In this document: one piece after another, positions 1 to 18,141 of the stretch
How the letters are laid out: each line of letters begins with the position of its first letter
Numbering within the stretch: position 1 is the first letter of the stretch
Origin: a virus
DNA: 20,878 bases
Reading direction: 5' to 3' (one strand)
Virus record (IMG/VR): IMGVR_UViG_3300009314_000096
Coordinates: 1-20,878 of that record
Notes under the pieces: generated by a model
Database searches by the model: none
The model's input: only the letters and a program-made list of their open reading frames with translations
Told to the model about the DNA's origin: nothing
Position numbers and translations under genes: made by a program

Positions 1-998
1 TCACCTTGAGCTTCGCCTGTCATTGTTAAGTCCTCTACTGTCCAAGTCCCGTCAGATATGTTTACATCTCCTAAATCCTCATCTTTATCTAATGTATAGC
101 CACCTGCGTTTACCGTATCCCCCGATACAGTATCCGCTGTAATCTCTAAACTGCCTATTGTGCTTTCAGCATAAATTTTATCTGCTGCAACCTTTTGAGA
201 AGACACAACAGTTGCTGTTATGGGGCTTATATTTCCTCCATCCACTTCCCAATAATTGCCAATATCCCCCACATCAGTTAAATAGCCAGAGTCATTAGTA
301 TAGACTGAGATATTTCCTGTGATATTCGTATTATCAAAGGTAGGCGAAGAACCTGAAGTCACATCTTGGTCTATATAAGAGTGGTCTGCACCAGTTGAGG
401 TTATATGGACGTTCGCATCATCCCAATCGTCATCTTTTTGAGTTCCCGCAGCATCACGGATTATCCCATAGTAAATCGTATCACCTGTTATGACACGACC
501 TGTAATCTTATCACCTGAAACTCGTGTAGAAGTTATAGGATAAATTGTGCTATCTGCATCAAAGTCCTGTGTCCATATCTCGGCACTTGCTCCAGCTGTT
601 GCCCCTGCATCGTCTTCCCAACCAAGGGTTGCTAAAGCCAAGTCATATTTAATCACTTGGTTGTCTCCAGGAGACCCTTGAGGTAAAGCATAAGAACCAG
701 TACGAACTGTATCCCCTGACACTGTTTTACCTGTTACCATTCCATCTGCGCCGATGTTATTATCAGAGTGAATATGCCCACCACGAACTGTGTCTACGGA
801 AATAGTATCTGACGTTATTTCCTTAAAAAGAGATGATACCTTAATATATCGAGAAGCAGGGGTTGTGCCATTTTCTACAATATATAAAAGGTCATCTCCT
901 GCCGTAACATCAGTTCCTGTAATTTCGGTCAGTTTCGCTCCTGCATAGGCGTTTGTGGCTAGAAACAAACATACAAGAAAAGCTAAAAGTTTCTTCAT
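1..998 (-). CDS. Exported tail-fibre-like protein, 3' end outside window
   Basis: The frame is open from ATG at 998 to the left edge, giving 332 codons with no stop, so the C-terminus is missing. The N-terminus is a textbook Sec signal peptide: KK, then a hydrophobic stretch, then N-A-Y-A with cleavage predicted after residue 19. The mature part is rich in T, S, G, D and V and contains recurring units around S-G-D-T-V and I-T-A/G-D-T, for example KTVSGDTVRTGSY and DTVSGDTVNAGGY. It also has a fibre-like segment, TFDNTNITGNISVYTNDSGY. Such repetitive, cysteine-poor beta-strand sequence is typical of phage tail fibres or tailspikes. No enzymatic motif is seen. A GGAG ribosome binding site lies 7 bases before ATG, and the upstream gene stops two bases before this start. 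Fibre role is inferred from composition and position; a signal peptide on such a protein is unexpected. Confidence 0.75.
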   Translation of the reverse strand, partial: MKKLLAFLVCLFLATNAYAGAKLTEITGTDVTAGDDLLYIVENGTTPASRYIKVSSLFKEITSDTISVDTVRGGHIHSDNNIGADGMVTGKTVSGDTVRTGSYALPQGSPGDNQVIKYDLALATLGWEDDAGATAGASAEIWTQDFDADSTIYPITSTRVSGDKITGRVITGDTIYYGIIRDAAGTQKDDDWDDANVHITSTGADHSYIDQDVTSGSSPTFDNTNITGNISVYTNDSGYLTDVGDIGNYWEVDGGNISPITATVVSSQKVAADKIYAESTIGSLEITADTVSGDTVNAGGYTLDKDEDLGDVNISDGTWTVEDLTMTGEAQG

Positions 999-1000
999 AT

Positions 1001-1534
1001 TTACTCCAATATCATTCCGAGGTCATTTTCAAGGTTTATAATTATGCTATTTTCATACGTGAAGTCTATATCTGGTGCTGCGATTACAGTCCAAGTTTCC
1101 CAAGCATCTCTTCTCCAAGTATTTGTGTTTATACACGCATACCAATAATTAGTATCATATGCCATTTCCCCTGTAACCCCTGTTGCATTGGGACTCGAAG
1201 GAACATTGGGAGATTTTAAAACAATATCGCTTATCTCAAGTTCATCATTTGTATTATCCCAAAATAAGTTTGAGTTATCTTCTGCCAAATCTCCATCTTC
1301 AGAAAATATTACAGACCCATCTGTAAAAGCAGTCACTATAACTCTGGATGCTCCTAATTCTTCAAGGGCTGACTCTACCGAAGGCGGACTTGCTACATCT
1401 CCAAAGTATCCGGCTGAATCTTCAACCCATATAAGGTAGGCTTGATTTGCAGGAAGGTCTCCAAAATTACCGCCAAACAAATCCTGTGCATAACAAGGGG
1501 TAGTTAATAACATAAATAGTAATACATATCTCAT
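1001..1534 (-). CDS. Exported fibre-like structural protein (177 aa)
   Basis: The protein begins with a short hydrophobic Sec signal peptide (MR, hydrophobic core, T-P-C-Y-A, cleavage after residue 16). Residues about 72-97 read GSVIFSEDGDLAEDNSNLFW, a motif pattern common in phage tail fibres ('GSVLF...L.EDNSNLFWD'), where it forms part of the shaft. The C-terminal half has several Trp and Tyr residues (NYWYACINTNTW) and is otherwise unrecognised. The start is coupled to the previous gene: its TAA and this ATG share bases in TAATG, and no convincing Shine-Dalgarno sequence is present. Expression therefore probably depends on translation of the 109-residue gene upstream. Function as a fibre or fibre-attachment protein is inferred. 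The cysteine at -3 does not fit a lipobox, so a lipoprotein is unlikely. Confidence 0.75.
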   Translation of the reverse strand: MRYVLLFMLLTTPCYAQDLFGGNFGDLPANQAYLIWVEDSAGYFGDVASPPSVESALEELGASRVIVTAFTDGSVIFSEDGDLAEDNSNLFWDNTNDELEISDIVLKSPNVPSSPNATGVTGEMAYDTNYWYACINTNTWRRDAWETWTVIAAPDIDFTYENSIIINLENDLGMILE

Positions 1535-1863
1535 TAGTCAAAAGTCTGTATTTCGATTACTACGTTACTTCGTGTAGTTCTAGCCCACACACCCGATGTG
1601 GGGGCGAACGTTTCAGCCAATCCCGCCCCAGCGTTAGAAATGAACGCAGTTCCATCAGATACATCATCTGCTATGTCTGGACTAGAAGAAAACGCTATAT
1701 CAAAAGATTGCGGAACTCTTTGTCCTATAGTAAAACGAGGCTTTATCTTAATCCCTCTTACTGCCTTAGCTTGGGCTTCCGTAAGAATAGCAGTCCAAGC
1801 CCCTGATGAAGGGAGGCTTACTGCATAAACTTTGCCTACTTTAGGGACGTAATTGAATGACAT
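1534..1863 (-). CDS. Small putative virion structural protein (109 aa)
   Basis: This is a short beta-rich protein without a signal peptide, transmembrane segment or cysteines. It has a regular mix of G, S, A and V with strand-like segments such as VGKVYAVSL, KPRFTIGQRV and NVVIEIQTF, and ends in TFD. I do not recognise a family. Its place between ejection-type genes and two fibre-like genes suggests a small tail or fibre-base component. It follows a 109-base gap, one of the larger non-coding gaps in the window, and no Shine-Dalgarno sequence precedes the ATG. It may be the first gene of its own transcript. It is translationally coupled to the next gene through TAATG. Confidence 0.6.
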   Translation of the reverse strand: MSFNYVPKVGKVYAVSLPSSGAWTAILTEAQAKAVRGIKIKPRFTIGQRVPQSFDIAFSSSPDIADDVSDGTAFISNAGAGLAETFAPTSGVWARTTRSNVVIEIQTFD

Positions 1864-1972
1864 TTATTGTTTACTTTTCTCTATTTTAAGGTATAATATA
1901 TACATGGGAGCAATCACAATCTTCATAGTTTGTTTCATTTTAGTATTGCTATCTAATTATAGAAATTGATAG
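1864..1972. other. Intergenic gap with promoter-like sequences on both strands
   Basis: This 109-base AT-rich gap separates the ejection-type genes from the fibre genes. On the plus strand TATAAT (1892-1897) lies 16 bases after a weak -35-like TTTACT (1870-1875). On the minus strand TTGTGA lies about 15 bases before TATTAT, placed to drive the 109-residue gene that starts at 1863. A 21-codon plus-strand frame (1904-1969), beginning about where transcription from TATAAT would start, encodes a hydrophobic peptide. A 24-codon minus-strand frame (1864-1938) abuts the next ATG. Neither has a ribosome binding site, so I do not call them genes. The promoter assignments are pattern matches only. Confidence 0.3.
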
Positions 1973-3241
1973 CTATTGGACACCTTCAAACCCTCCAAAT
2001 TCCCCACCTCTGTCACCAAGAATAGGGTCAACTAAGAACTTCCTCGCTGCAGCAAATCTACCTACTGTTCCCAGTGTTCCAAGAAATCCTCTTTTAATTC
2101 CCTGAGCAATATTAAATCCTTCAATATCTCGAATAATGTCAGTTACACGAGGAGATAATTCCGCTAATCTTTTAAAAAACTCTCTTATTCCAGGCTCACC
2201 TTTTGAAGTAAACAAATTCTGCAGTTTATTTGCTATAGGATTTCCTCTTGGATTCTTTACTATTGGGTCTACTTCTGCCTTTATCTTTTCTATATTAGAA
2301 TATTTATCCATTATAGGTGCAACTCGTGGGTCAACTTCCCTTAAAATTGTCGCCAATTCATTACGGGCTGTTCGTATCACCTGCTTTTCTATTTTGCCAG
2401 CATCAATATAGTCTTTTCTTGTCAAGAAATCATCCAAGAACCGCCTCAATCTCCAAATATTTCTTGCTTTTGGGTCTAACGTACCATCAGGCAAAAAGCG
2501 TACTTTAAATATTCTTTGATTAGCAACTGTTTTTAATTTTCTTATAACTCTCGTAGGTAAAGCTTCGAGGGCTTTACTTGTTCGTGCAATATTCACAGCC
2601 TTATCTCCTGCAGGACTATCCCACAAATCTCCAATAGCTCTACCAGCTTGCTTCTCTAAATCATCAGATATATTACCTATTTCTTTTGAACGACTTAAAA
2701 CATAATCAGGATTTTTAAAGAACTTTATCTTGCCAAGACGTTTTCCTATATCAATCATATTACCGCCCAAAGCAGTATTGCGTAAAGCAGCCTGACTAAT
2801 GCCAAATACTGTTGCCTCAGTCACACCTGCTCCAAATTCCTGAAAATGTCCTACAGGCATACGTTCTGCCGCAAACTGCTGAAGTCTTCCAGGAAATGTC
2901 GTAGGCGTCATAGCTCTTTGTCTTTCTTGAACACGAGATATTATTTCTTTTCCCTTCTCAGTTTCAGCAAGTTTTCTTGCACCAAATCCTATTGCACTTG
3001 CAACTGGGGCTTTTATGGCAAGAGTGGCTCTTAGAGATTCCTCAGGCTTTTCTATTATTCTCTGACTAGCAGAACCAGCAAACCCAGGAATTAGTGCACT
3101 TTTGACTGCTGTCTCAAAACCTATCCGTGCTGGGTCAAGTCTGCCAAATCTCGGTTCATCTAGTTCAAATCCCTCTGGTAGACTTATATCTCCGTCTAAT
3201 ACAAAGCCCTCTGGCAATTCTACTGATTTAACATTTGCCAT
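1973..3241 (-). CDS. Putative ejection/internal virion protein with LPEGF repeats (422 aa)
   Basis: The N-terminus carries two copies of a short linear motif, LPEGFVLD and LPEGFELD, at about residues 9-16 and 21-28. This kind of repeat is often seen near the ends of phage internal virion proteins. The rest is predominantly helical and strongly basic (many K and R, for example RVIRKLKTVANQRIFKVRF), with some apolar Ala/Gly-rich stretches and no signal peptide. No lytic transglycosylase or peptidase motif is visible. It is the last of three consecutive genes (285, 403 and 422 residues) following the tail and fibre genes, where podoviruses such as P22 keep their DNA-ejection proteins. The start at 3241 has a GAGGTGG binding site and overlaps the previous gene by 22 bases. 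The ejection role is inferred from position and composition. Confidence 0.65.
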   Translation of the reverse strand: MANVKSVELPEGFVLDGDISLPEGFELDEPRFGRLDPARIGFETAVKSALIPGFAGSASQRIIEKPEESLRATLAIKAPVASAIGFGARKLAETEKGKEIISRVQERQRAMTPTTFPGRLQQFAAERMPVGHFQEFGAGVTEATVFGISQAALRNTALGGNMIDIGKRLGKIKFFKNPDYVLSRSKEIGNISDDLEKQAGRAIGDLWDSPAGDKAVNIARTSKALEALPTRVIRKLKTVANQRIFKVRFLPDGTLDPKARNIWRLRRFLDDFLTRKDYIDAGKIEKQVIRTARNELATILREVDPRVAPIMDKYSNIEKIKAEVDPIVKNPRGNPIANKLQNLFTSKGEPGIREFFKRLAELSPRVTDIIRDIEGFNIAQGIKRGFLGTLGTVGRFAAARKFLVDPILGDRGGEFGGFEGVQ

Positions 3242-4431
3242 TTACCACCTCTATATATCATTTTTTCTCCAGTGTTAGGATTAGTCGCAGTTTGCCCTTC
3301 TCTTATTGCTGGCTTTTGTACTTTACGACTTTCTATTCTTTTACTAATCGGTTCAACAACACTAGCGGACAATTTATCTACAGACGCTTCTTCTTCAGGA
3401 GACAATTCAACTCTATCTGCTAATCTTGCTACTTTTGCCACCCAATTAGCTAATCTAGGTGACATTCTGCCTTGTTCATCAACTAAATTGTTAATATCCT
3501 CTGCAGTAAATTCTCTACTAAACTGCATTTTATTTTCTTCAGCTGCTCTCGCAAATCTATAGAATGTCCTAACAGTTTCTGTGAGTTGTCTTATAGCAGT
3601 TCTTGCCGCAGTATTCTTATCAGGAACAGTCTGACCTAACGCTGCCAAAACAGAACGTATTAACCTAACAGAACCTTCAGGCTTTTCTGTCTGCTGTGTT
3701 AGCATAGGCATCATTTTAAGTAAGAATTCATTCCGCTTACCTGGAACCGCCCCGCTTGCAGGGAATTTACCGCCTATTTCCGCCCCTCCTAAAAACTTAG
3801 GCAAATCGCCAATTCTCTCTGCTCTTCTGCTAATAAAAGCCTGGAAAGCACCACCTGCACCGCCTTCCTCCATCGCATCAGCTAATACTTGTGCAAAATC
3901 ACGCCCAACTCCAGTTATTAATTCAAGGTTTGATATTGATGCTCTTGAGCCTGCTGCTACTTTTTGCTTTCTTTGTGCAATTTGACCAGCTTCTGCTTTT
4001 CTCATCGCAGCACCTTTTCTTTCAAATTGCGTAGGTTGTATACCTCCAAACGCTGTTCGTTCAAATTTCGTAGGTTCAAGTTCTATATCTCTCCCCATTC
4101 CTCTAAAGTTCAAACCTTGCCCTCTTGTGACAGGTTCTGCTGATTGTCCAGGGGCTGCAGTAGGAACTTCTGGTATTTCTAACTCTGCTCCAGCTTCTGC
4201 AGTTCCAAAAATACCACGAGGGTCTATACCCGCATCCATTAATGCCTTACTTGCCGTAGCTACATCTACAAGTTTATCCATTGGACTTGCAAATTCTTGC
4301 TTTATTTTAGCTTCCTCTCTTGCTAATTTAATCTTATCCTGAAATTCCTGCTCTTTAGATTTACGCCTCTGTTCTGCTATAGCCATAGCAGCAAATAAAT
4401 TACCTATAGTATCCCCTATATTCTTCGCCAT
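3220..4431 (-). CDS. Putative ejection/internal virion protein (403 aa)
   Basis: The protein starts with a helical segment that becomes a charged coiled coil (about residues 18-47, rich in E, K, Q and R). A low-complexity middle follows, with a twofold repeat of the form PTKFER / PTQFER near residues 115-137. Long helical regions come next. The C-terminus reads ATNPNTGEKMIYRGGKWQML, an ending I associate with phage internal virion and tail-associated proteins. There is no signal peptide and no recognised catalytic motif. A strong AAGGAGG site sits 4 bases before ATG at 4431. It belongs to the 285-403-422 residue group and its stop overlaps the next start, so the three are probably made together. 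Its role in DNA ejection is inferred; a tail-needle or tail-tip role cannot be excluded. Confidence 0.65.
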   Translation of the reverse strand: MAKNIGDTIGNLFAAMAIAEQRRKSKEQEFQDKIKLAREEAKIKQEFASPMDKLVDVATASKALMDAGIDPRGIFGTAEAGAELEIPEVPTAAPGQSAEPVTRGQGLNFRGMGRDIELEPTKFERTAFGGIQPTQFERKGAAMRKAEAGQIAQRKQKVAAGSRASISNLELITGVGRDFAQVLADAMEEGGAGGAFQAFISRRAERIGDLPKFLGGAEIGGKFPASGAVPGKRNEFLLKMMPMLTQQTEKPEGSVRLIRSVLAALGQTVPDKNTAARTAIRQLTETVRTFYRFARAAEENKMQFSREFTAEDINNLVDEQGRMSPRLANWVAKVARLADRVELSPEEEASVDKLSASVVEPISKRIESRKVQKPAIREGQTATNPNTGEKMIYRGGKWQMLNQ

Positions 4432-4440
4432 AGAGCCTCC

Positions 4441-5298
4441 TTATAGATTCTTTAGAAAATCAAATATGTTTTGCCCTGTGGAAACTCTTTTAGTTTTTCC
4501 TGTCGTTTCTGTACCATCAAACAAATCAGCTAGTGTTGCTATATCAAGACCTCCGCCTGTTTTAGCAGGTTTTCTTGCACCTGTTATATGACTGATATCC
4601 TGAACATTAGGTTCAAATAAATCTCCTATCCCACCGCCAATTTCACTACCAACTGCTCCACCTATAGGGCCTCCAAATATACTCCCTAAAATACCACCAC
4701 CTGTTTTACCTATAGTAGAAAATAAATTAGCAGCAGCAGACCTTTTCTGAAAATCACGAATGGCATTCTGTAGAGCAGTCTGAAAATCAGCCTCTGTTTG
4801 TAAATTAGATTGACTTATGTCAGTTTCTACAAAAGGAGATACAGCTTGTAATGGGTCTATGCCTAACATCTGAAGTATACCCGATTCCCTACCTCTTAAA
4901 GCAAGCTCAGACCTTCTTTGACCTAAATTAGATAAAAACTTCCCAATATTAAATATGGTAGGACTTATGGCTTTGGAAAATAGTTCCGGAAATGACGCTT
5001 CCATTCCTGATAATGATGCCCTATGACCTGATGTTCGACTTGCTTTTTCCAATGCATCCTCAAAGAATGTTCCAGATATGCCTTCCTCAAAAGAAGTAGG
5101 ACCGAATTGTTCAAAAAACTCCATGCCGGGCTCAAGGTCTCCTGCCTGGATTCTTCTTAAAGCTTCCTCTCTTGAACCCATAGCAAGAGGAAATTCACCT
5201 CTGCCAAAACTTAAAGCATCTCTAAATATCTGGTCTGCTGTTTTAAAACGCCTCTGCGGAAAATCACCAAATGATATATTGCCACCGAACAATCCCAT
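4441..5298 (-). CDS. Putative ejection protein with glycine-zipper segment (285 aa)
   Basis: Residues about 198-228 form a Gly-rich apolar stretch (GGGILGSIFGGPIGGAVG and following), a glycine-zipper pattern able to insert into or pack within membranes. Similar segments occur in podovirus ejection proteins that form a conduit across the host envelope. The flanking sequence is helical and polar. No signal peptide, cysteine pair or enzymatic motif is seen. A very strong TAGGAGG site precedes ATG at 5298. Its place after the fibre genes and before two large helical proteins fits the usual order of tail followed by ejection genes. The family is not certain; the ejection assignment is inference from the zipper and the context. 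Confidence 0.65.
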   Translation of the reverse strand: MGLFGGNISFGDFPQRRFKTADQIFRDALSFGRGEFPLAMGSREEALRRIQAGDLEPGMEFFEQFGPTSFEEGISGTFFEDALEKASRTSGHRASLSGMEASFPELFSKAISPTIFNIGKFLSNLGQRRSELALRGRESGILQMLGIDPLQAVSPFVETDISQSNLQTEADFQTALQNAIRDFQKRSAAANLFSTIGKTGGGILGSIFGGPIGGAVGSEIGGGIGDLFEPNVQDISHITGARKPAKTGGGLDIATLADLFDGTETTGKTKRVSTGQNIFDFLKNL

Positions 5299-5306
5299 AA
5301 TTCCTC

Positions 5307-5621
5307 CTATGGTTCTAAAGCTGATACTCTTTGTTCGAGTTCGGTCAGTCTTTCTTCTATTGTTTTTGGTTTAATAAAGTCTTTTTTATAATCTTTAATT
5401 ATTTGCTTAAGTTCCTGTTTTGTGGGCTTAGGCACACCCTGTACTTCCCATGAAGTAATTTTATATGATTTACCGATTGACCGAGTGCCAACTTCAGCTC
5501 CTTCTAGTTTCCCTTGTTTTTCCAGCCACCACGATAAAGCTAAGGCACATGGTTCATTAGAAACATCCGCGTATACTGATACTGATATTAGTAAAATCGC
5601 TATTACTAAAAATACTTTCAT
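5307..5621 (-). CDS. Small exported protein with C-terminal coiled coil (104 aa)
   Basis: A clear Sec signal peptide opens the protein (MKVF, hydrophobic core, V-S-V-Y-A, cleavage after residue 18). The middle reads YKITSWEVQGVPKPTKQELK, resembling small phage tail-region proteins with an 'I-x-W-...-P-x-P-T-x-E-E-L' pattern. The last 18 residues (TIEERLTELEQRVSALEP) form a short heptad coiled coil suited to trimerisation or attachment. One cysteine lies near the mature N-terminus (NEPC), but the spacing does not fit a lipobox. The start is set by a strong AAAGGAGG site. It sits between the receptor-binding-like fibre gene and the ejection genes. A fibre-linker or chaperone-like role is possible but unproven. 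Confidence 0.7.
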   Translation of the reverse strand: MKVFLVIAILLISVSVYADVSNEPCALALSWWLEKQGKLEGAEVGTRSIGKSYKITSWEVQGVPKPTKQELKQIIKDYKKDFIKPKTIEERLTELEQRVSALEP

Positions 5622-5660
5622 ATATTCCTCCTTTAGATTGGTATAATAGAGGCAAATCTA

Positions 5661-6566
5661 TCAAGGTATCACCTCCGTAATAGTTATGCTTGAAGCTAAA
5701 ACTCCTCCATAAAGCCTACCACCAGCGGCACCATTAAACGTTATAGTATCAGTAGATGCACTACCTGACCTTACTTTAAAAGTGGTAGAACTTGTTGTGC
5801 CAGCTACCATATAATGAGAAAATGATATATCCATTGTTACAGCATTTGTATTGTCAGACCTTCTAGCACAAGCTAAAGCATCTGCTGTAGTATCTTGAAA
5901 TAGTGCAACAGCAATCCCGTTATTAGCGCCGCTTGACCCATTCCAAACAACATCAATCTTTAACATATTAGAAGCATCTGTTGGAGTAATAGCCAATGTT
6001 ATATTTTCATGTCCCTCAGTGTTTTGCGGTATAGTGTCATCATTTGGTATTTGAGAATTAGCATTAGATTGGACTTCTCCATCCTGAGTATTCACTACCT
6101 GAACTACAGTAGAACTTGCCTCTTGCCACGCTGGGTCTGATGTCGCCCCTTGAGCAGTCAAAACTTGACCTATAGTCCCGGAGCCTAAGCGTGACCATGC
6201 GGAACCGTCATAATAAATAACATCACCTTGCGTAGGAGAGCCTGATACTGTAATAGTTTGCTGGAAAGCAGAACCTGTATCAAAGTTTATAGTATCGTTT
6301 GTGGTTAAGAATATAACGCGCCCCTCAGTACCTGCAGCAGGCAAAGCTCCTAAGACTTCAAAGAATCTATAACCGCCAGACGTATCTGCATTATCATTAT
6401 CAAGTCCACCATTTACAACAGTTACAATGTTGTCAAAATTGCCATTGAGATTGGTAGAATTGACCTCAGAATTTGTCGCATACGTAGTATGTCTATTTAC
6501 TGTCCCTGCATATGCTGAAGTCGTTAATAATAAGCACAATATAACTAATATAGCTTTTTTCATCAT
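5661..6566 (-). CDS. Exported tail fibre with receptor-binding-like C-terminus (301 aa)
   Basis: The start is placed at ATG 6566 because GGAGG lies 5 bases upstream and the upstream gene ends in an overlapping ATGA; an in-frame start at 6620 has no binding site and would bury the signal peptide. Residues 1-20 are a Sec signal peptide (MMKK, hydrophobic core, S-A-Y-A). The segment GDVIYYDGSAWSRLGSGTIG is a widespread phage tail-fibre shaft motif. The last 115 residues (ITPTDASNMLKIDV ... TTFKVRSGSA ... SSITITEV) match the pattern of a C-terminal jelly-roll receptor-binding domain common in environmental phage fibres. Adsorption to the host surface is the expected role. The signal peptide is at odds with cytoplasmic virion assembly and is the point to explain. 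Confidence 0.85.
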   Translation of the reverse strand: MMKKAILVILCLLLTTSAYAGTVNRHTTYATNSEVNSTNLNGNFDNIVTVVNGGLDNDNADTSGGYRFFEVLGALPAAGTEGRVIFLTTNDTINFDTGSAFQQTITVSGSPTQGDVIYYDGSAWSRLGSGTIGQVLTAQGATSDPAWQEASSTVVQVVNTQDGEVQSNANSQIPNDDTIPQNTEGHENITLAITPTDASNMLKIDVVWNGSSGANNGIAVALFQDTTADALACARRSDNTNAVTMDISFSHYMVAGTTSSTTFKVRSGSASTDTITFNGAAGGRLYGGVLASSITITEVIP

Positions 6567-8182
6567 TCTCTCCTCCAAGTTTTCATTTTCGCCAATAGTG
6601 TGAATGAATGCAGGTTGCAAGTTTCACTTACTACATTCTGTTCAAATCTCACCTTTATCTTTTTAAATTCTCCATATCTCTGTAATTGGAAAGTCTTTCT
6701 GGCTACTCCACTGGCACCTAAAGTAAAAGGTAAATTCACCGGTAACGTAGGAGCGTCACTTGAAACTTCTATCGTCCCTACATTCTGAAATCCTCCGTTA
6801 TCTATTTCGATATAAACTGTAACATCAAATGCCCCGTCTGTTCCAAATTCCACGTCCAAAGAGTCCAATTGTTTAAAATTCTCCGCATTTTCAAAATCTA
6901 CGTTCTTAGAAGTATACTGCCAAGCAATTCCCACCGTAGGCTCTGAGGCAGATGTGACTATAGGACCTGAAGCCATGTCTCCCGTAGTCCCGGTAAAACA
7001 CTGAACAGCTCTCCCATCCAACGCATCTATATAATAAAGGTTATTACTTATTTTAATCCATGCAGCAGGATACCATCCGTCTATTACATACCAAGATTCT
7101 GTTATAGCATCAAATACCAAAACTGTATTGTTTACCGTAGAAACCCCGGTAGGTATGGCAAGAATGTATTTATTATCATAAAGAATAGCGCAAGACTTCT
7201 CAATTACTGTGGTGTTTATAGTCGTATCACCAGACCCATCAAAGTAATCCTGAACTGGAGTTGAGACCATATTGAGAAGAAGCTTGTCAAATTCAGACCT
7301 AACTAAACTCCTTACCGCTATCGGGTCAGAGGATAAGAACCAATGGTCATTGCCTATATTTACAACGCTTCTCGGAGCTATGCACCCCACAGACTGAGTA
7401 ACAGCCTGCAGAGACCAATTAGTCAAAGGCGTAGCTCCCGTTATATCTAATATCCAAATGCTTCTTTCTTTATAAACTATGAGCTCATTAAGCTTGAAAG
7501 GCTCAAGTCTTGTAATCTTCTGCCCATCTCCTGTATTTACTCTAAAGAGGTCAGTTGACGTATAAGTAGCAGGGTCTAGATTGTTAGAAAATCGTACAGT
7601 ATCTACCGCAGCAGGGTCACCCGCCAAAAAGAGATAATTCCTAAGCCATGCGCCGGTCGTTGCCACAGGAGCAGAAGCCGTGTCGCTTGAACCCGGGTCC
7701 CATACTGAACCTGAGTAATTTGCTGTGCTATCAGAGCCATTTAAAATGAATAAAAGATTATTTGCCTGAATAAATTCTGTATCTTTTCCCGTAGTTAAGT
7801 TATTCTCCGGGTTTACTCTAAGCCAACTTGCAGGCGAAAGAACCGACCTTAGTATTTGCTCTCCAGAAGCAACCATTAGGTATGATGTGTTCACATCCGG
7901 GTAAAAAGCACCAAGACCCGTAAATGCAGTATTTGATATGTCAGTAGCAAAAAGAGCCTGACCTTTACGTTTAAAAAGCTGACCCTTTTTATTCAAGACT
8001 ACATTTTTAACCAAAGTACCTTGAGAAGCATCAATAACATCTGATAAATCAAATGAACTCTGACCCCCGTGAAAGAGGTCTACTCTCACTTTAAGAAGCC
8101 CTTTATCACCTTGCTCTACCTGAGCAAAGGCACAAGTCGATATGAGTAATGCAATTATTAATGTCTGAAGTTTTTTAACCAT
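6563..8182 (-). CDS. Tail nozzle-like protein with signal peptide (539 aa)
   Basis: This long beta-rich protein has repeated W/Y-containing strands such as SYLMVASGEQILRSV, NNLLFILNG, NKYILAIPTG and SWYVIDGWYPAAW, consistent with a beta-propeller. It ends SFTLLAKMKTWRRE. It directly follows the adaptor gene, the arrangement in podoviruses where the adaptor is followed by the nozzle (the P22 gp10 / T7 gp12 class), which forms the lower tail tube. The first 20 residues are a Sec signal peptide (MVKK, hydrophobic core, C-A-F-A), not expected in this family. The start overlaps the adaptor gene by 25 bases and has no Shine-Dalgarno sequence, so translation is probably coupled. Nozzle assignment rests on size, fold pattern and neighbours. 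Confidence 0.75.
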   Translation of the reverse strand: MVKKLQTLIIALLISTCAFAQVEQGDKGLLKVRVDLFHGGQSSFDLSDVIDASQGTLVKNVVLNKKGQLFKRKGQALFATDISNTAFTGLGAFYPDVNTSYLMVASGEQILRSVLSPASWLRVNPENNLTTGKDTEFIQANNLLFILNGSDSTANYSGSVWDPGSSDTASAPVATTGAWLRNYLFLAGDPAAVDTVRFSNNLDPATYTSTDLFRVNTGDGQKITRLEPFKLNELIVYKERSIWILDITGATPLTNWSLQAVTQSVGCIAPRSVVNIGNDHWFLSSDPIAVRSLVRSEFDKLLLNMVSTPVQDYFDGSGDTTINTTVIEKSCAILYDNKYILAIPTGVSTVNNTVLVFDAITESWYVIDGWYPAAWIKISNNLYYIDALDGRAVQCFTGTTGDMASGPIVTSASEPTVGIAWQYTSKNVDFENAENFKQLDSLDVEFGTDGAFDVTVYIEIDNGGFQNVGTIEVSSDAPTLPVNLPFTLGASGVARKTFQLQRYGEFKKIKVRFEQNVVSETCNLHSFTLLAKMKTWRRE

Positions 8183-9111
8183 GTGTTTATTATTTTATGT
8201 TGGTACGCAGTTCCCATTTTTCCGCCTTGATTACTTAATATAGCAGCAAGAGCGTTTTCTGCCTGTTTCAAAAAGCTCCCTGCTCTTGCGCCTTCTTTAT
8301 CCTGTTCTAAGGCAGCAGCAGCCGAACTAAACACTAAAAACTTGTCGCACTCTACAAAAGGATAATCATTATCGTCTATAAGAGGTCTTACGATTTCTTT
8401 AAAAAGAAGCCTCATGGAATTGACAGAGTCGGGTATTAGACCTAACTTTAGAACTTTATGACGGGCAATTCTCTCTATAGGAGCCAATGTTTCTAAGGTA
8501 GCATCAGAAGAATTTGTTATTGTAATATAACCTGTAGTGTTAGCGGATTTGCTTACATGAGTAATTTTATAAAATGTCTTAGTTCCTGCAACTGCTGTAG
8601 TAGGGCTTGAAGTTGAAATGTCTATATCCTCAAATTCCTCTATCAAATGGGCAGAGTCAATATACCCTCTGATTCTTACAGTTATCCCCGTGTTATCACT
8701 ACCAGAGGAGCTTTTAACCTTTACAGTGTCTCCCGATGTGGATATCGCAACTCTAGTTCCCGTTTTACCGTATATCCTGTATTTTTCAGGGTCACCGGAT
8801 TCAGCATCTGCAATATTAGAGACATTATTATCAAAATATTCAAGTTCCGTTTCGGGTTCTATTTCCTTCTTATCCGTTAAATCATACAGTCTAAAAGGCT
8901 TGTCAAACCTGTTCGGAAGAGGGTAATCTTCTTGGTCTGCTACAGTATCAAAGTTATGTATCCCTTCAAGTTCATTCCAAAAGTCATAAAGCTCTGAAAG
9001 TCTCTGGTGCTCAAATCGCATCCAAACTTTGATGTAAGCTTTATAAGAAGTGTCGCCTGACCTTTGAGCTAGTACTGCAGCATCATCTACAAGTTCCGTA
9101 TATGTTCTCAT
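8158..9111 (-). CDS. Head-tail adaptor protein (317 aa)
   Basis: The N-terminal helix region ends in HQRLSELYDFWNELEG. It is followed by a strand motif, VADQEDYPLPNRFDKPFRLY, and then GDPEKYRIYG. This order (helices with a W-x-E element, 'D-Y-x-L-P-x-x-F', then 'G-x-P-x-x-Y') is characteristic of podovirus adaptor proteins that bind the dodecameric portal and receive the nozzle. The middle contains an Ig-like Ser/Thr-rich insertion (about residues 118-210), and the C-terminus is helical with an Ala-rich segment (FSSAAAALEQDKEGARAG). It has no signal peptide, in contrast to the nozzle-like protein encoded immediately downstream. The start is coupled to the previous gene by TAATG. Confidence 0.75.
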   Translation of the reverse strand: MRTYTELVDDAAVLAQRSGDTSYKAYIKVWMRFEHQRLSELYDFWNELEGIHNFDTVADQEDYPLPNRFDKPFRLYDLTDKKEIEPETELEYFDNNVSNIADAESGDPEKYRIYGKTGTRVAISTSGDTVKVKSSSGSDNTGITVRIRGYIDSAHLIEEFEDIDISTSSPTTAVAGTKTFYKITHVSKSANTTGYITITNSSDATLETLAPIERIARHKVLKLGLIPDSVNSMRLLFKEIVRPLIDDNDYPFVECDKFLVFSSAAAALEQDKEGARAGSFLKQAENALAAILSNQGGKMGTAYQHKIINTWLKNFRH

Positions 9112-9308
9112 TAAAAACTCCTTCTTGCAGGGCTTAAAAAGAAACCATTCACCCTCAATACGACAAAGCTTTTAGTTTCTTCTATTACCGTATAATCTAC
9201 AATTGCTTTTATCTTCTGCCCTATTTTCTTGTTCCCGAGACCCGTATGCATATTCTCAGGAATATCCACGGTAGGTTTAAAATCTTCCATCAATATAGGA
9301 ATAGGCAT
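9111..9308 (-). CDS. Small phage protein, unknown function (65 aa)
   Basis: This small protein has an N-terminal polar segment (MEDFKPTVDIPENM) and a strand-rich C-terminal half (KIKAIVDYTVIEETKSFVVLRVNGFFL), a pattern suggesting a small beta-barrel. A GAGG site lies 5 bases upstream of ATG at 9308, and TAATG overlaps couple it to both neighbours, so expression is locked to the adaptor gene. No signal peptide or cysteine is present. A minor structural or assembly role is plausible from context. I do not recognise a named family. Confidence 0.6.
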   Translation of the reverse strand: MPIPILMEDFKPTVDIPENMHTGLGNKKIGQKIKAIVDYTVIEETKSFVVLRVNGFFLSPARRSF

Positions 9309-9535
9309 TAAGACCTCGTGTTTTTCTTTCTTATAAGCTCCGATGTTTCTATTCTAATGGTTTTAACAAGTAAGTCCGTTCCGTCAGGCTGAACCTCTAT
9401 TCTCTCAGAATCTATAAAACCGACAATCTCCATTTGACCGGACTCTCCCGTATGCAAATCCTGCTTAACGGAAAAAGACTTATCAAGTATAATCCTCGGC
9501 TTTCTCTGGATTATTAGAGACCTTGCTTCTTCCAT
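9308..9535 (-). CDS. Small phage protein, unknown function (75 aa)
   Basis: The sequence is rich in charged residues and beta-strand-like segments (GQMEIVGFIDSERIEVQ, TDLLVKTIRIETSEL), with no cysteine, signal peptide or transmembrane helix. It lies between an exported beta-rich protein and another small gene just before the head-tail adaptor. Both ends overlap their neighbours in TAATG, and the Shine-Dalgarno match is weak, so translational coupling is likely. A small structural protein of the connector region is the simplest guess, but no family is recognised. Confidence 0.55.
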   Translation of the reverse strand: MEEARSLIIQRKPRIILDKSFSVKQDLHTGESGQMEIVGFIDSERIEVQPDGTDLLVKTIRIETSELIRKKNTRS

Positions 9536-9948
9536 TATTGCCTATATTCAAATCCAAATAATGTAACCGCAATTGACGAACCGGTATCACTTGTAACTGT
9601 AAACCCTTCGTCAGATTTGGTAACATAAACAGGATATCCTCCTGCATGAAGAACAATCGGGTCTGAAGCTAATAGACTCGCCTTTGCTATGGCAGACGGA
9701 TTCAATAAAGCAGGGTTGCTTGCGCTTATCTCTATTTCTACGTTATCAGATGCGCTGATTGTAGCTGACATTAAAAAATATGAATTACCGGTCGAAGGAA
9801 AGAAACTTGCCCCTGAGGCAGTGTCGTCTATTGTACCTATAGCCTCAATAACAACCGGGCTTGCTTCTCTATGTCTTACCGGTGAGTCAGCATAACAAAT
9901 GCTTGTCAATAAAACCAAACTTAGAACAACTAGAATTCCTTTTCCCAT
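9535..9948 (-). CDS. Small exported beta-rich protein (137 aa)
   Basis: Residues 1-20 are a Sec signal peptide (MGKG, long hydrophobic core, S-I-C-Y-A). The mature 117 residues look like a beta-sandwich: alternating strands such as YFLMSATISASDNVEIEIS and SSIAVTLFGFEY, many S, A, T and V, and no cysteines. It resembles small structural or decoration-like virion proteins in composition but has no motif I can name. A strong AAGGAGG site overlaps the stop of the upstream gene, one base before the start. It heads the block leading to the adaptor and nozzle genes. The cysteine at -3 does not fit a lipobox. Whether it ends up in the virion or on the host envelope is open. Confidence 0.7.
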   Translation of the reverse strand: MGKGILVVLSLVLLTSICYADSPVRHREASPVVIEAIGTIDDTASGASFFPSTGNSYFLMSATISASDNVEIEISASNPALLNPSAIAKASLLASDPIVLHAGGYPVYVTKSDEGFTVTSDTGSSIAVTLFGFEYRQ

Positions 9949-9949
9949 G

Positions 9950-10141
9950 TTACCTCCTTATGGAATCTTCTCTTTCTTCATCAGTAAGTTTATCAAAATT
10001 AGATTTATGGACATTACGTCCCCTTTGGACAAACATGTCCCTATCTCTCTCGAAATGCTCAGAACCATCTATGTCATCTAGGATTTTCTTTCCGCGCAAT
10101 ATATGCCTACTAGGTATTATATTTCTTCCTTTTTTACCCAT
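9950..10141 (-). CDS. Small basic protein, unknown function (63 aa)
   Basis: This small protein is very rich in R, K, D and E (for example RGRNVHKSNFDKLTDEEREDSIRR), begins MGKKGRNIIP, and has no hydrophobic segment. The start is supported by an AGGA-type site about 8 bases upstream. Its 5' end overlaps the homing-type endonuclease gene by 25 bases, and its stop lies one base before the next start. Nucleic-acid binding is suggested by charge alone. I do not recognise it. Confidence 0.55.
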   Translation of the reverse strand: MGKKGRNIIPSRHILRGKKILDDIDGSEHFERDRDMFVQRGRNVHKSNFDKLTDEEREDSIRR

Positions 10142-10710
10142 TCTCTATATTCCTTTTCTGTTTTTGTTCGTTTCGAATGATTACATTTTTTGCAAGCTAC
10201 AGCTAAATTATTATATTCATTCGTTCCCCCACGGCTCAAAGGTATTTTATGCTCTAAATGGTCTTTACCAAACAGTATAGATATTTCACAAAGATAGCAA
10301 GTTAGCGTTCCATATTTTTTTATATTATCTTCATAAACCAATTGAATACGTTCAATTGGTAATTCACCACCGCCCTTCTCCAATGCTTTTCGTCTTTGTC
10401 TATATTTCTTTGTATCTTTGGATATGCCACCTTTCCATAAATAACTATTTTTACCACTATTAGCTAAACCTATCTTTCTCTTTGTTTCCTGTGTGTGCTT
10501 TTTACCGACTCCCAATTTATGCCCTTTTCTAAATGCGGTTTTAGGTACCTGCCCTGGTTGACATCTAAAACATTGACAATTTACATTATGTGCATATAAA
10601 GCTTGTCCTTTTGCAAAACCATATCCTTGATATATGCCTTTTTGAAACTTCACAGCTACATCATTGCGCCCACCAACTATAAATCTACCGTTGCTATCCC
10701 TTTCAACCAT
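10117..10710 (-). CDS. NUMOD3-HNH homing-type endonuclease (197 aa)
   Basis: The C-terminal half holds an HNH nuclease motif with zinc ligands: C138-x2-C141, D150-H151, E153-H154, N164, N168, then C173-x2-C176 and H178. Residues about 71-95 (KHTQETKRKIGLANSGKNSY) match the NUMOD3 DNA-binding repeat found in homing endonucleases. A further small Cys cluster lies at residues 45-50 (CQCFRC). This combination marks free-standing phage homing endonucleases that cut an intron-less or variant allele and spread by recombination. It has its own GGGG-type binding site and lies between the O-antigen ligase-like gene and a small gene, overlapping the latter by 25 bases. It is probably a mobile insertion and not part of virion assembly. 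Confidence 0.85.
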   Translation of the reverse strand: MVERDSNGRFIVGGRNDVAVKFQKGIYQGYGFAKGQALYAHNVNCQCFRCQPGQVPKTAFRKGHKLGVGKKHTQETKRKIGLANSGKNSYLWKGGISKDTKKYRQRRKALEKGGGELPIERIQLVYEDNIKKYGTLTCYLCEISILFGKDHLEHKIPLSRGGTNEYNNLAVACKKCNHSKRTKTEKEYREWVKKEEI

Positions 10711-10718
10711 TTCTACCC

Positions 10719-11846
10719 CTAGCCATTTAACGCTCCTTTATACAATCCATAAAACACGCATAATAACATCCCCGAAACTGCGATATGAGATAAAAAATTT
10801 CCCTGTGCATTTAAAATATAAGCCACTATACAAGCAAAGTAAGTAACCACTTCTTTTGTCTTATCTGACCTGATAAAATCAATAATAAATCCGCCCACTA
10901 CGCATCCTAACGCTAAAATACCAAGTATACCTAATTCAAATAACACCTCTACGGTATCATTATGAGCATGCATGTATTTCTCGTTTACATAGTTAAAATT
11001 CTCTTGTTCGGGGACTAGATGGAAATATGTATTAAAATGCCCAAATCCATATCCTATCCACCTGTTTCCCTTTATCTCTTTAGATACCCCCCTTGACTGT
11101 ACGTTTAAAGATTCATTCCACGTAGACATTATTGAATGTTTCCACACATCATATCTTGCTAAAAGGTCAGCTGATTTAATTTTGTCTACTTTTCCAAAAA
11201 ATACGCCACCGGCAATTAAACATAAAACTATAGCATATTCAAACCATCTGCGGTTTCTATAAAATAAATATATAAGACCTGCCACAATACCGGCTACAAA
11301 AGCAAAAGACGACTTAGATATGCCTATACCAGTTAAAGACAAAACAGCCAATGGCGGAAATACGTTTAACGCTACAGGCAGGGTCGTGGCATAAAATGTA
11401 CCAAGCTGGTCAGCAGAACCGGAAAACCCAACCATCTCATCCTTACCGGGTCTTTGACTGGAAGTAAATATAAAGTCTTTGTTTAAGCCCTGTATCAAAA
11501 CCCAACTAGACTGGATTAAAATAAGAGCAACTACAGTCCAAATTATTAACCTACAATTCTTAAGCTTACTAATACCATAAGAAACTAGACATGCCAAATC
11601 CAAAGTAATAACCATCATTATTGCTCTAGGATACATCTTAGCTACGAAGAATGTGGATAAAAGGCATACTCCTGTGAATATTGAAAGCCATTTGTTAAAA
11701 TCCCATAAAATTAAAGAACACCCTGCTAAAAGACAAAAAAGCCACGTGGCATACTGTGGATACCATATGGCTTGCCCTTTTAAAGGAATCACAGCCCCTA
11801 GGAGAACTGCGAATATTGTTATTACTATAAATATCGTATACTTCAT
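10719..11846 (-). CDS. O-antigen ligase/polymerase-like membrane protein (375 aa)
   Basis: The protein is strongly hydrophobic, with about ten predicted transmembrane helices and a large loop at roughly residues 221-297. The loop contains R231 in ARYDVWKHSI, GYGFGHF (265-271) and HAHND (293-297) followed by E300 and the ELGILG segment. This order of Arg, G-x-G-x-F and H-N is the signature of the Wzy_C / WaaL family, integral membrane enzymes that polymerise O-antigen units or ligate glycan from an undecaprenyl diphosphate carrier. Length fits the family. Here it sits inside a phage virion gene cluster. A likely role is alteration of host surface glycans, for example to block superinfection or release progeny. 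No Shine-Dalgarno sequence is seen, and a hairpin lies just upstream. Confidence 0.85.
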   Translation of the reverse strand: MKYTIFIVITIFAVLLGAVIPLKGQAIWYPQYATWLFCLLAGCSLILWDFNKWLSIFTGVCLLSTFFVAKMYPRAIMMVITLDLACLVSYGISKLKNCRLIIWTVVALILIQSSWVLIQGLNKDFIFTSSQRPGKDEMVGFSGSADQLGTFYATTLPVALNVFPPLAVLSLTGIGISKSSFAFVAGIVAGLIYLFYRNRRWFEYAIVLCLIAGGVFFGKVDKIKSADLLARYDVWKHSIMSTWNESLNVQSRGVSKEIKGNRWIGYGFGHFNTYFHLVPEQENFNYVNEKYMHAHNDTVEVLFELGILGILALGCVVGGFIIDFIRSDKTKEVVTYFACIVAYILNAQGNFLSHIAVSGMLLCVFYGLYKGALNG

Positions 11847-11854
11847 GTTAAGGG

Positions 11855-11883
11855 AAGGAGGCGGAGTAGGAAGCCGCCCCCTT
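11855..11883 (-). terminator. Hairpin between exported 128-aa gene and membrane glycan gene
   Basis: On the minus-strand transcript the arms AAGGGGGCGG and CCGCCTCCTT pair over 10 base pairs, including one G-U wobble, around a 9-base loop. On the plus strand the same position would be an A-C mismatch, so the structure fits the minus-strand RNA better. The minus strand has only a C/U-mixed tail, so this is a weak terminator or attenuator at best; a 3' RNA stabiliser for the capsid-region transcript is equally possible. It ends eight bases before the ATG of the membrane protein gene. Confidence 0.5.
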
Positions 11884-11898
11884 TTGATTACGGTTCTT

Positions 11899-12285
11899 TT
11901 AGTGTTGTTTTCCTACTTTCGGACCACTTGCATCCTGCCAGTAAGTAGTCGGGGGAGAAGCAGTCTCCAAACCGTCACCTACCGCTAGAGCATCCGGCGA
12001 AGCAATTCTAAGCGACCCGTCACTTCCGACCCAAAGATAAAATACCTCAGTGGTATAATCATCCGCGTCAGCTGCCGGAGCGCCACCTTCATCCGTAGAT
12101 GCGCTAGTTCTGTGAAGCATTATGTATCCAGGAGCCGCCCCCGGTCCGCCAAGACAAGCAATATTAGAGAAGTTTGTCTGTCCTTCCCGCTGCTGAATCG
12201 GCGGTGAGGTGGTTCTGGACTGTGCATATACAGGAACCGCAAATAATGAAGCGATTAACATTATCGCAATCAGCTTCTTTATCAT
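11899..12285 (-). CDS. Small exported protein behind the capsid gene (128 aa)
   Basis: It has a Sec signal peptide of 21 residues (MIKK, hydrophobic core, V-P-V-Y-A). The mature 107 residues are Gly/Ala/Pro-rich, with a beta-rich middle (EVFYLWVGSDGSLRI) and a polar tail, and contain a single cysteine. No family is recognised. It lies 12 bases after the major capsid gene and has a strong AGGAGG site, so it is likely made at high level together with the capsid. Candidate roles are a secreted decoration or fibre-like protein, or a secreted factor acting on the envelope. The sequence alone does not decide. Confidence 0.65.
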   Translation of the reverse strand: MIKKLIAIMLIASLFAVPVYAQSRTTSPPIQQREGQTNFSNIACLGGPGAAPGYIMLHRTSASTDEGGAPAADADDYTTEVFYLWVGSDGSLRIASPDALAVGDGLETASPPTTYWQDASGPKVGKQH

Positions 12286-12297
12286 GTTTACCTCCTG

Positions 12298-13200
12298 TTA
12301 TGCGCCACTTGACCCGTAAGTTCCCATCCAGTGTGAATACCCAACTGAGAATCTCATTCTCGCAAGATGCTTAAGGTTAGTGGAATCAAAATCAGTCCCA
12401 CGCCTTAATGCGCCAAGCTGGACTCTCCAGAAGAACTTAAGCATATGATTGGCTTTTTCAGCTAACAGTGCCCAAGCATCTGCATCAGTCAGATAATGCC
12501 ATACAAAATACTGCAAATCCTTCTTTTGTAAAGCATTTACTTCGTTGTTTGCAACGTAAGGTTTATACTCCGAACCGATAAGCTCCTCCGCCACATTCCA
12601 GTTATCCACTGCAATTATGAGAAGAACAGCCTTTGTCGGACGTTTTAAACCTCTCTCATCCGTAAACTTTTCAATAGCAGTCAAGCCAGCCGTTAAACTT
12701 GCCACCGAAAGGTCGGCATCAGTTGTCGGTTTATTGGCTTGAGTTGTATTGTCTAAATTCGGATGAGATGCTGAAAACAACGGCACTCCGTCAAATCCGT
12801 TGGTAGTAAAACCGTTGTTGATAACATTCGCTGCCGCAACTTCAACAGTTTCAATACCGCTGCGATTGAGTGCTTGCGGAAGTTTATTGAATGTCTCAGG
12901 TGTTCTGAGATTGTCTTCAATAGCTTCTTCGGTAATCTCGTAACCTAAAGCATAGGTTGTATGCGTATAGGTTTTCCTGATACCCGGCTTGATTACGTCA
13001 TATGTCGCAGCTGACCCTTCAGTCTTGGCTGGCATTGCCGCAAAGCCAGATTCGTAGGAATCAATTTCGGATTGTTTGTCCGAAGGCCCTACGTTGAAAA
13101 TCTTCCGATACTCCTCGCCCCAGCTTGTAAGTCCATCTTGGTACATGGAATTCAAGTTGGCGTCAAGAGCATCAACAATTGTACTTCTAGATATTGGCAT
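12298..13200 (-). CDS. Major capsid protein (300 aa)
   Basis: The sequence follows the HK97-fold major head protein pattern of the Mu gpT-like and podovirus type. It has an N-terminal helix arm, YALGYEITEEAIEDNL (about residues 83-98), GFDGVPLFSASHPN (135-148), and a C-terminal region with WHYLTDADAWALLAEK and RRGTDFDSTNL. It would self-assemble on the scaffold into the icosahedral shell. Its order after scaffold and decoration genes is typical. The ribosome binding context is almost identical to that of the gene just upstream. There is no signal peptide. Length and motifs are complete, with no sign of damage. Confidence 0.85.
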   Translation of the reverse strand: MPISRSTIVDALDANLNSMYQDGLTSWGEEYRKIFNVGPSDKQSEIDSYESGFAAMPAKTEGSAATYDVIKPGIRKTYTHTTYALGYEITEEAIEDNLRTPETFNKLPQALNRSGIETVEVAAANVINNGFTTNGFDGVPLFSASHPNLDNTTQANKPTTDADLSVASLTAGLTAIEKFTDERGLKRPTKAVLLIIAVDNWNVAEELIGSEYKPYVANNEVNALQKKDLQYFVWHYLTDADAWALLAEKANHMLKFFWRVQLGALRRGTDFDSTNLKHLARMRFSVGYSHWMGTYGSSGA

Positions 13201-17923: not shown

Positions 17924-18141
17924 CCCAGCTCTTTCTCTATCTTCTTAGGCAAATCAAGTATAGCTTTTACCGCAAAGCACTGCCCGACAAAAAACTCTCT
18001 GTTCTTAGTTCTTACTGAATGCAAAGCATCATCTGCGTTAGAATACACTTGCCTCAGCTCCTCCCGGAAGTCCTTCCATTCCGGTGACTGGAACAGCACT
18101 TGGAGCCTGCCCAGGTGAGCCTTGTGTTCTTGGTTGTCCAC
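17920..18141 (-). CDS. Small protein overlapping the portal 3' end (73 aa)
   Basis: GTG at 18141 is preceded by AGGAGG at 5-base spacing, better than an earlier in-frame GTG at 18147 that abuts the same site. The product has the pattern SPEWKDFREELRQVYSNADD, then FVGQCFAVKAILDLPKKIEK, resembling small helical proteins encoded just after portal genes in other podoviruses. Its first 104 bases also encode the portal C-terminus in another frame. It contains one cysteine and no membrane segment. Function is unknown; a head or packaging accessory is plausible from location. Confidence 0.65.
   Translation of the reverse strand: MDNQEHKAHLGRLQVLFQSPEWKDFREELRQVYSNADDALHSVRTKNREFFVGQCFAVKAILDLPKKIEKELG

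Follow-up and report, generated by a model that had tools for sequence, protein, structure and literature searches.

The analysed window, an IMG/VR virus contig of 20.9 kb (the whole stretch of 20,878 nucleotides), is a podophage structural module read from the minus strand, whose nozzle, fibres and small companion proteins carry N-terminal signals of the Sec type. By sequence, export of this tail-exterior set is well supported, because the signals occur clade-wide, the starts are coupled to upstream genes, homologues outside the clade are signal-less and the cysteines are paired. These features, and the absence of such signals from the head proteins, suggest that tail building takes place beyond the host cytoplasm, at odds with the accepted view of tailed-phage morphogenesis; to our knowledge, the tailed phages described so far assemble their tails in the cytoplasm. 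On balance, it is probable that the window represents the structural module of a podophage clade that builds its virion in two compartments.

Gene content and predicted signal peptides

The module comprises genes for a portal, scaffold-like and decoration-like proteins, a major capsid protein, an adaptor, a nozzle, a fibre, three ejection-type proteins and further tail genes (Table 1). Signal peptides were evaluated using a home-made scorer of the n-, h- and c-regions of Sec signals, which was checked on 185 genes of E. coli K-12. In this check all known Sec proteins scored at least 11 bits, the Tat protein HyaA fell below 11, and above 15 bits a pseudopilin was the sole non-Sec protein having just one hydrophobic segment. 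Seven minus-strand genes of the window (starting at 998, 1534, 5621, 6566, 8182, 9948 and 12285) scored from 18.5 to 27.6 bits; the E. coli references OmpA, OmpF and MalE had 24.3, 24.4 and 20.3 bits, respectively. The remaining window genes were all below 6 bits, except for the multi-spanning Wzy_C protein (13.1 bits). By sequence criteria, the seven N-termini are predicted Sec and signal peptidase I substrates with real starts, as the sequence-only reading had claimed, and none of the head, portal, adaptor and ejection genes scores as a signal peptide, also in agreement with it.

Table 1. Features of the structural module in the window. A slash marks the predicted cleavage site.
Product	Position	Strand	Predicted signal peptide	Score (bits)	Support and remarks
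Fibre-like protein	3..998	(-)	MKKLLAFLVCLFLATNAYA/GAKL	25.9	3' end cut by contig end
Tail protein, 177 aa	1001..1534	(-)	MRYVLLFMLLTTPCYA/QDL	19.7	PHROG 17312 'tail protein', 1.5e-6
Small protein, predicted exported, 104 aa	5307..5621	(-)	MKVFLVIAILLISVSVYA/DVS	20.9	
Fibre A	5661..6566	(-)	MMKKAILVILCLLLTTSAYA/GTV	27.6	Alignment with clade relatives
Tail nozzle protein, 539 aa	6563..8182	(-)	MVKKLQTLIIALLISTCAFA/QVE	23.2	Foldseek matches
Tail adaptor	8158..9111	(-)	None	-8.5	Pfam SU10_adaptor, 8.6e-8, above cut-off
Small protein 'wzx', predicted exported, 137 aa	9535..9948	(-)	MGKGILVVLSLVLLTSICYA/DSP	18.5	
Wzy_C/O-antigen-ligase-like polytopic membrane protein	10719..11846	(-)			Pfam Wzy_C, above curated cut-off
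Small protein 'capx', predicted exported, 128 aa	11899..12285	(-)	MIKKLIAIMLIASLFAVPVYA/QSR	24.1	Adjoins capsid gene
Major capsid protein	12298..13200	(-)	None	-7.1	PHROG 371, 3.9e-17
Portal	18038..20266	(-)	None	-16.8	PHROG 1216, 9.3e-14

All seven signals have a basic n-region, a hydrophobic core and small residues at -3 and -1, with neither a twin arginine nor a lipobox cysteine at +1. Their predicted cleavage ends, listed from gene 998 to gene 12285, are NAYA/G, CYA/Q, VYA/D, SAYA/G, AFA/Q, CYA/D and VYA/Q, and agree with the form proposed earlier ([AVC]-[YF]-A followed by G, Q or D). The accompanying description of the signals as near-identical was overstated: their mean pairwise identity is 0.40, much the same as among ten unrelated E. 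coli signal peptides (0.35). A duplicated signal cassette was rejected, since the seven are barely more alike than the E. coli signals. Shine-Dalgarno sites were found at five of the seven signal-gene starts.

The fibre-like gene at the contig end had no match in PHROG and Pfam searches. The 177 aa tail protein has its N-terminal part in common with the predicted exported fibres (647-871 aa) of relatives, with 41% identity to the start of the 871 aa fibre of locus L003. The 104 aa protein weakly matched PHROG 8746 (tail fibre assembly, E 0.015). In fibre A, a stretch of about 100 aa past the signal is conserved at the N-terminus and the C-terminus is variable. The name 'wzx' is an ad hoc label for the 137 aa protein and does not denote a Wzx flippase.

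Conservation across the clade

Scans with the nozzle, capsid and Wzy_C proteins retrieved relatives forming one clade of about 25 uncultured podophage contigs, of which four are circular genomes (42.6-45.6 kb), as judged from the direct terminal repeats of 50-127 bp at their ends. Identities to the window were 47-63% for the nozzle (first set) and 76-83% for the capsid. At the strict cut, the signal was kept in 22/22 capx, 18/19 wzx, 19/21 nozzle and 14/17 fibre A proteins. The large downstream fibres of clade members also carry signals, and in total 85 of 324 clade genes passed 16 bits and 93 passed 14 bits. Among the exceptions at the strict cut, the L105 nozzle and the L110 fibre adjoin extra insertion-like open frames; the others score just below the cut, have a second hydrophobic stretch or, in L112, retain a still signal-like N-terminus. 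Across the clade, the capx gene follows the capsid gene and the wzx gene follows the Wzy_C gene.

In most members, the nozzle and fibre A genes start no more than about 3 nt from the stop codon of the preceding gene, frequently in ATGA overlaps, and the signal is therefore part of the gene. Nozzle signals are 34% identical, compared with 55% for the mature nozzle, and keep the n-h-AxA form; such faster divergence under a constant form is what real signal peptides would be expected to display. Each of the five near-complete genomes has a single nozzle gene, which bears the signal. Internal start codons preceded by a Shine-Dalgarno site and close to the predicted mature N-terminus were found in 2/19 nozzle genes (one being that of the window), 1/15 fibre A, 0/20 capx and 0/17 wzx genes. 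Owing to this rarity, cytoplasmic forms arising from alternative internal starts were rejected.

Several members showed further features. The major capsid gene is split by a LAGLIDADG-like ORF (GWLAGIIEGEG), probably an intron or intein, in L110 (4922-6514) and L145 (5838-7548). Long low-complexity Ser-Ala-Arg repeat frames, probably a tandem-repeat region, occupy one end of the G001 genome (L130, 8191-10309). Phage G004 encodes a Staphylococcal-nuclease-like protein (L125, 9737-10150) whose strong signal peptide marks it as an apparently exported nuclease.

Loci outside the clade

The control set comprised 78 loci with capsids 37-41% identical (934 genes), among which no gene passed 16 bits and two passed 14 bits. 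At the 95% upper bound of this 0/934 background rate, the probability of at least 7 signal genes among 25 is 1.6e-12. Wrong start codons or chance had to be considered as a source of the signals, and misassigned starts had been named by the sequence-only reading as a possible refutation. Misassigned starts are unlikely because of the Shine-Dalgarno sites at five of seven starts and the coupling of clade starts to upstream stops; with the conservation in about 25 contigs and the empty background added, such an artefact was rejected and is given hardly any weight.

Members of the nozzle family beyond the clade (L008, L009, MW202524, MW202497, C75C1 and others) have no signal. In L008, the gene past the nozzle region starts with MGIISVTTITSENEKITKTTLNG and encodes a signal-less fibre that, after its Met, aligns from the first predicted mature residue of the clade fibre (hhalign E 1.7e-4, with a probability of only 49.5%). 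Because the nozzle homologues lack the signal and this fibre aligns from the mature N-terminus, the signal seems to have been added to a tail that is ordinary in other respects. Another nozzle homologue, in L101 (MW495066.1 198352-223326; GenBank 'Microcystis phage MaAM05'), is flanked by lepA, ftsH, proS, hppA and glgX, and the MaAM05 record resembles a piece of bacterial chromosome rather than a phage genome.

Identity of the nozzle

The nozzle was modelled with AlphaFold2 from seven sequences, at low confidence (mean pLDDT 56). Foldseek ranks 1-11 for this model were all podophage tail chains (best E 1.3e-14), among them Pa223, VP1, P22 gp10, Sf6 gp8, the PhiM1 nozzle and T7 gp12; the SU10 nozzle was matched in a second comparison. 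VIA-align of the model (pLDDT 56) against solved nozzles gave Z of 12-14 over about 260-310 residues with an rmsd of 11-14. Alignments starting near model residue 85 start at chain residue 55-62, so that the window nozzle exceeds the solved nozzles by about 24-30 residues at its N-terminus, roughly the length of a signal and a short linker. The gene directly follows that of the adaptor and is present in one copy per near-complete genome. On the strength of the fold search, the earlier nozzle-like call is confirmed, and the predicted product is a podophage nozzle with the beta-propeller fold of P22 gp10, T7 gp12 and SU10.

Paired cysteines

If exported, the proteins would fold in the periplasm, and their cysteines are therefore expected to be gained and lost in pairs. 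Two cysteine columns of capx were both occupied in 6 members, both empty in 14, and singly occupied in 1 and 1 (p 6e-4, related sequences counted). The wzx pair was complete in 5, absent in 10 and single in 3 (p 0.0065, related sequences counted); the three single-cysteine members contain additional cysteines outside the aligned column. In the nozzle, columns 331 and 522 covary (p 0.013), together with two weaker pairs (p 0.04-0.05), again with related sequences counted. Mapped onto a tree built from four cytoplasmic proteins, both the capx and the wzx pair show more than one joint change. No pair below 0.05 was found in seven cytoplasmic families (capsid, portal, adaptor, decoration, scaffold, the 161-aa protein and the first ejection protein), of which the portal and decoration offered 6 and 5 cysteine columns, respectively, and no covarying pair was seen in fibre A. 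The paired cysteines of the three exported families are as expected for disulfides that would be made after export.

The Wzy_C gene and the small exported proteins

The Wzy_C gene, a core gene of the clade, sits between the capx and wzx genes and was present in 10/10 records searched and at every other locus covering the place. Its conservation, of which the sequence-only reading made no use, ties capx and wzx to a glycan enzyme of the periplasm. Pfam Wzy_C was matched by 7/7 aligned members; R231, H293, H295, N296 and E300 are invariant, and the profile matched the WaaL structure 7tpg (E 1e-9). The protein had no PglL_A domain match and no NCBIfam match, and that of the window had no match in the phage collection. 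It shares the Wzy_C domain with the bacterial O-oligosaccharyltransferases PglL and TfpO but lacks the PglL_A match. Directly downstream, the window carries an HNH endonuclease gene (10117-10710); in relatives, this slot is filled by extra ORFs (L108, 7078-7809; L138, 9154-9654; L142, 9178-9882).

Beyond the clade, relatives of the Wzy_C protein were found only in L152 and L153, both singletons. These distant phages (L152, 1126-2959; L153, 3753-5537) have the order capsid, signal-peptide protein, Wzy_C, and a nozzle without a signal. Since the trio occurs there beside a signal-less nozzle, the pairing of Wzy_C with an exported neighbour does not depend on tail export, and the trio possibly represents a separate pair of exported protein and glycan enzyme. 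No relation was found between the L153 exported protein and capx. The AF2 model of capx (mean pLDDT 69) had no PDB or viral match below E 0.2, and PDB comparisons gave no convincing relative of the small exported proteins.

In bacterial O-glycosylation, the transferase and its exported substrate are often encoded side by side. By analogy, the small exported proteins are possible candidate substrates of the Wzy_C enzyme, the main alternative role of which would be altering the host O-antigen. Phage O-antigen ligase or polymerase genes, such as D3 Wzy-beta and VarioGold VG_p25, likewise encode membrane proteins with a Wzy_C domain, and VG_p25 lies beside a gene for a signal-peptide protein (PMC9658991). 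However, the D3 and VarioGold genes belong to moron clusters opposing the late genes, whereas the clade gene lies within the late structural operon in every genome covering the locus.

Host

A walled bacterial host is argued for by the exported SLT and DPBB lytic enzymes that relatives encode. The single genome-collection match was L114 (VGTM01000014.1), a clade contig of similar base composition in a MAG labelled 'Euryarchaeota', which contained no Omp85 and no other Wzy_C. This contig is probably mis-binned; an archaeal host may be conceivable for the L114 member alone. The host search gave no plasmid match and no tRNAs.

Assembly model and alternative explanations

In the proposed model, the portal, scaffold, capsid, adaptor and ejection proteins would be synthesized and assembled in the cytoplasm. 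The nozzle, the fibres and two small companions would be exported through Sec, processed by signal peptidase I and folded in the periplasm, where disulfides would form in some of them. The Wzy_C membrane enzyme would probably act there on the small exported proteins or a host glycan, and might also modify the nozzle and fibres. We infer that heads and tails meet once lysis opens the inner membrane: holin and endolysin would open this membrane and the wall, DNA-filled heads would encounter the pre-formed tail parts, and the nozzle would dock on the adaptor. The full version, with cytoplasmic heads, periplasmically folded, disulfide-bonded tails O-glycosylated by the phage Wzy_C, and virions completed only at lysis, is a tentative proposal, appreciably less probable than two-compartment building as such. 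A point against two-compartment assembly is its demand for efficient nozzle-adaptor docking after lysis.

Two readings had been offered earlier, namely two-compartment assembly and tail-derived proteins acting on the host envelope. Export of the tail-exterior set, which they share, is upheld; two-compartment assembly fits best, because near-complete genomes have a single, signal-bearing nozzle gene and internal starts are rare, and the assembly step itself we infer. The other reading, that the exported proteins are tail-derived but serve receptor blocking, superinfection exclusion or Wzy_C surface remodelling and are not virion copies, accords with the known seroconversion 'morons' carrying Wzy_C genes, with the neighbour of the VarioGold ligase gene (PMC9658991), and with the L152/L153 trio existing without tail export. 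It would nevertheless leave the virion with no other nozzle, since the sole gene carries the signal, and the exported genes stand in the standard virion order, coupled to the adaptor gene; we regard it as unlikely. That no other nozzle gene is found in near-complete genomes strongly indicates that the exported nozzle would be the virion copy.

Somewhat less likely again is a dual fate, in which one part is exported for surface roles and another, through slow export or late Sec overload, is kept in the cytoplasm and builds the virion. Some precursors do escape export at high expression, but the internal starts that could supply a cytoplasmic form are rare, as counted above, and covarying cysteine pairs suit a single oxidised functional form. 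The N-terminal segments might instead be hydrophobic virion elements, inserted into the membrane at infection or cut by a phage protease, much as some podophage ejection proteins have hydrophobic segments. This is improbable: the segments conform to the n-h-AxA pattern, are found on proteins unrelated to one another and vary freely in sequence where a structural element would keep its residues, and the ejection-type proteins themselves lack them.

Comparison with known phages

The clade shares the gene order portal-scaffold-capsid-adaptor-nozzle-fibre-ejection with the P22, Sf6, T7 and SU10 podophages, whose tails are also alike in the nozzle fold and the SU10-type adaptor; compared with these, the clade nozzle and fibres add cleavable-looking Sec signals. 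In known podophages, the docking site of the nozzle and fibres is the adaptor of the filled head. The platform domain of the SU10 nozzle docks straight onto the adaptor (PMC9509320).

The clade tail proteins with export signals depart from the wholly cytoplasmic pattern of tailed phages, represented by 0/934 genes in the capsid-related loci. The virion proteins of filamentous phages (Inoviridae) carry Sec signals and are used after export. However, those proteins are unrelated and the virions are extruded through the envelope, whereas the portal and tailed-phage major head protein found in the window place it outside Inoviridae. Searches of open-access papers, judged by title and abstract, did not bring up any tailed phage with signal peptides described on its virion tail proteins, and to this extent the earlier statement that no precedent was known for so many in one cluster stands. 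The probability that this mode of assembly is of a new kind is substantial.

If the model is true, tailed phages would have a second, clade-wide mode of assembly, in which disulfides and glycosylation in the periplasm become available to the tail proteins and lysis is the final step of morphogenesis. Signals combined with paired cysteines would also provide sequence-only tests for finding similar phages.
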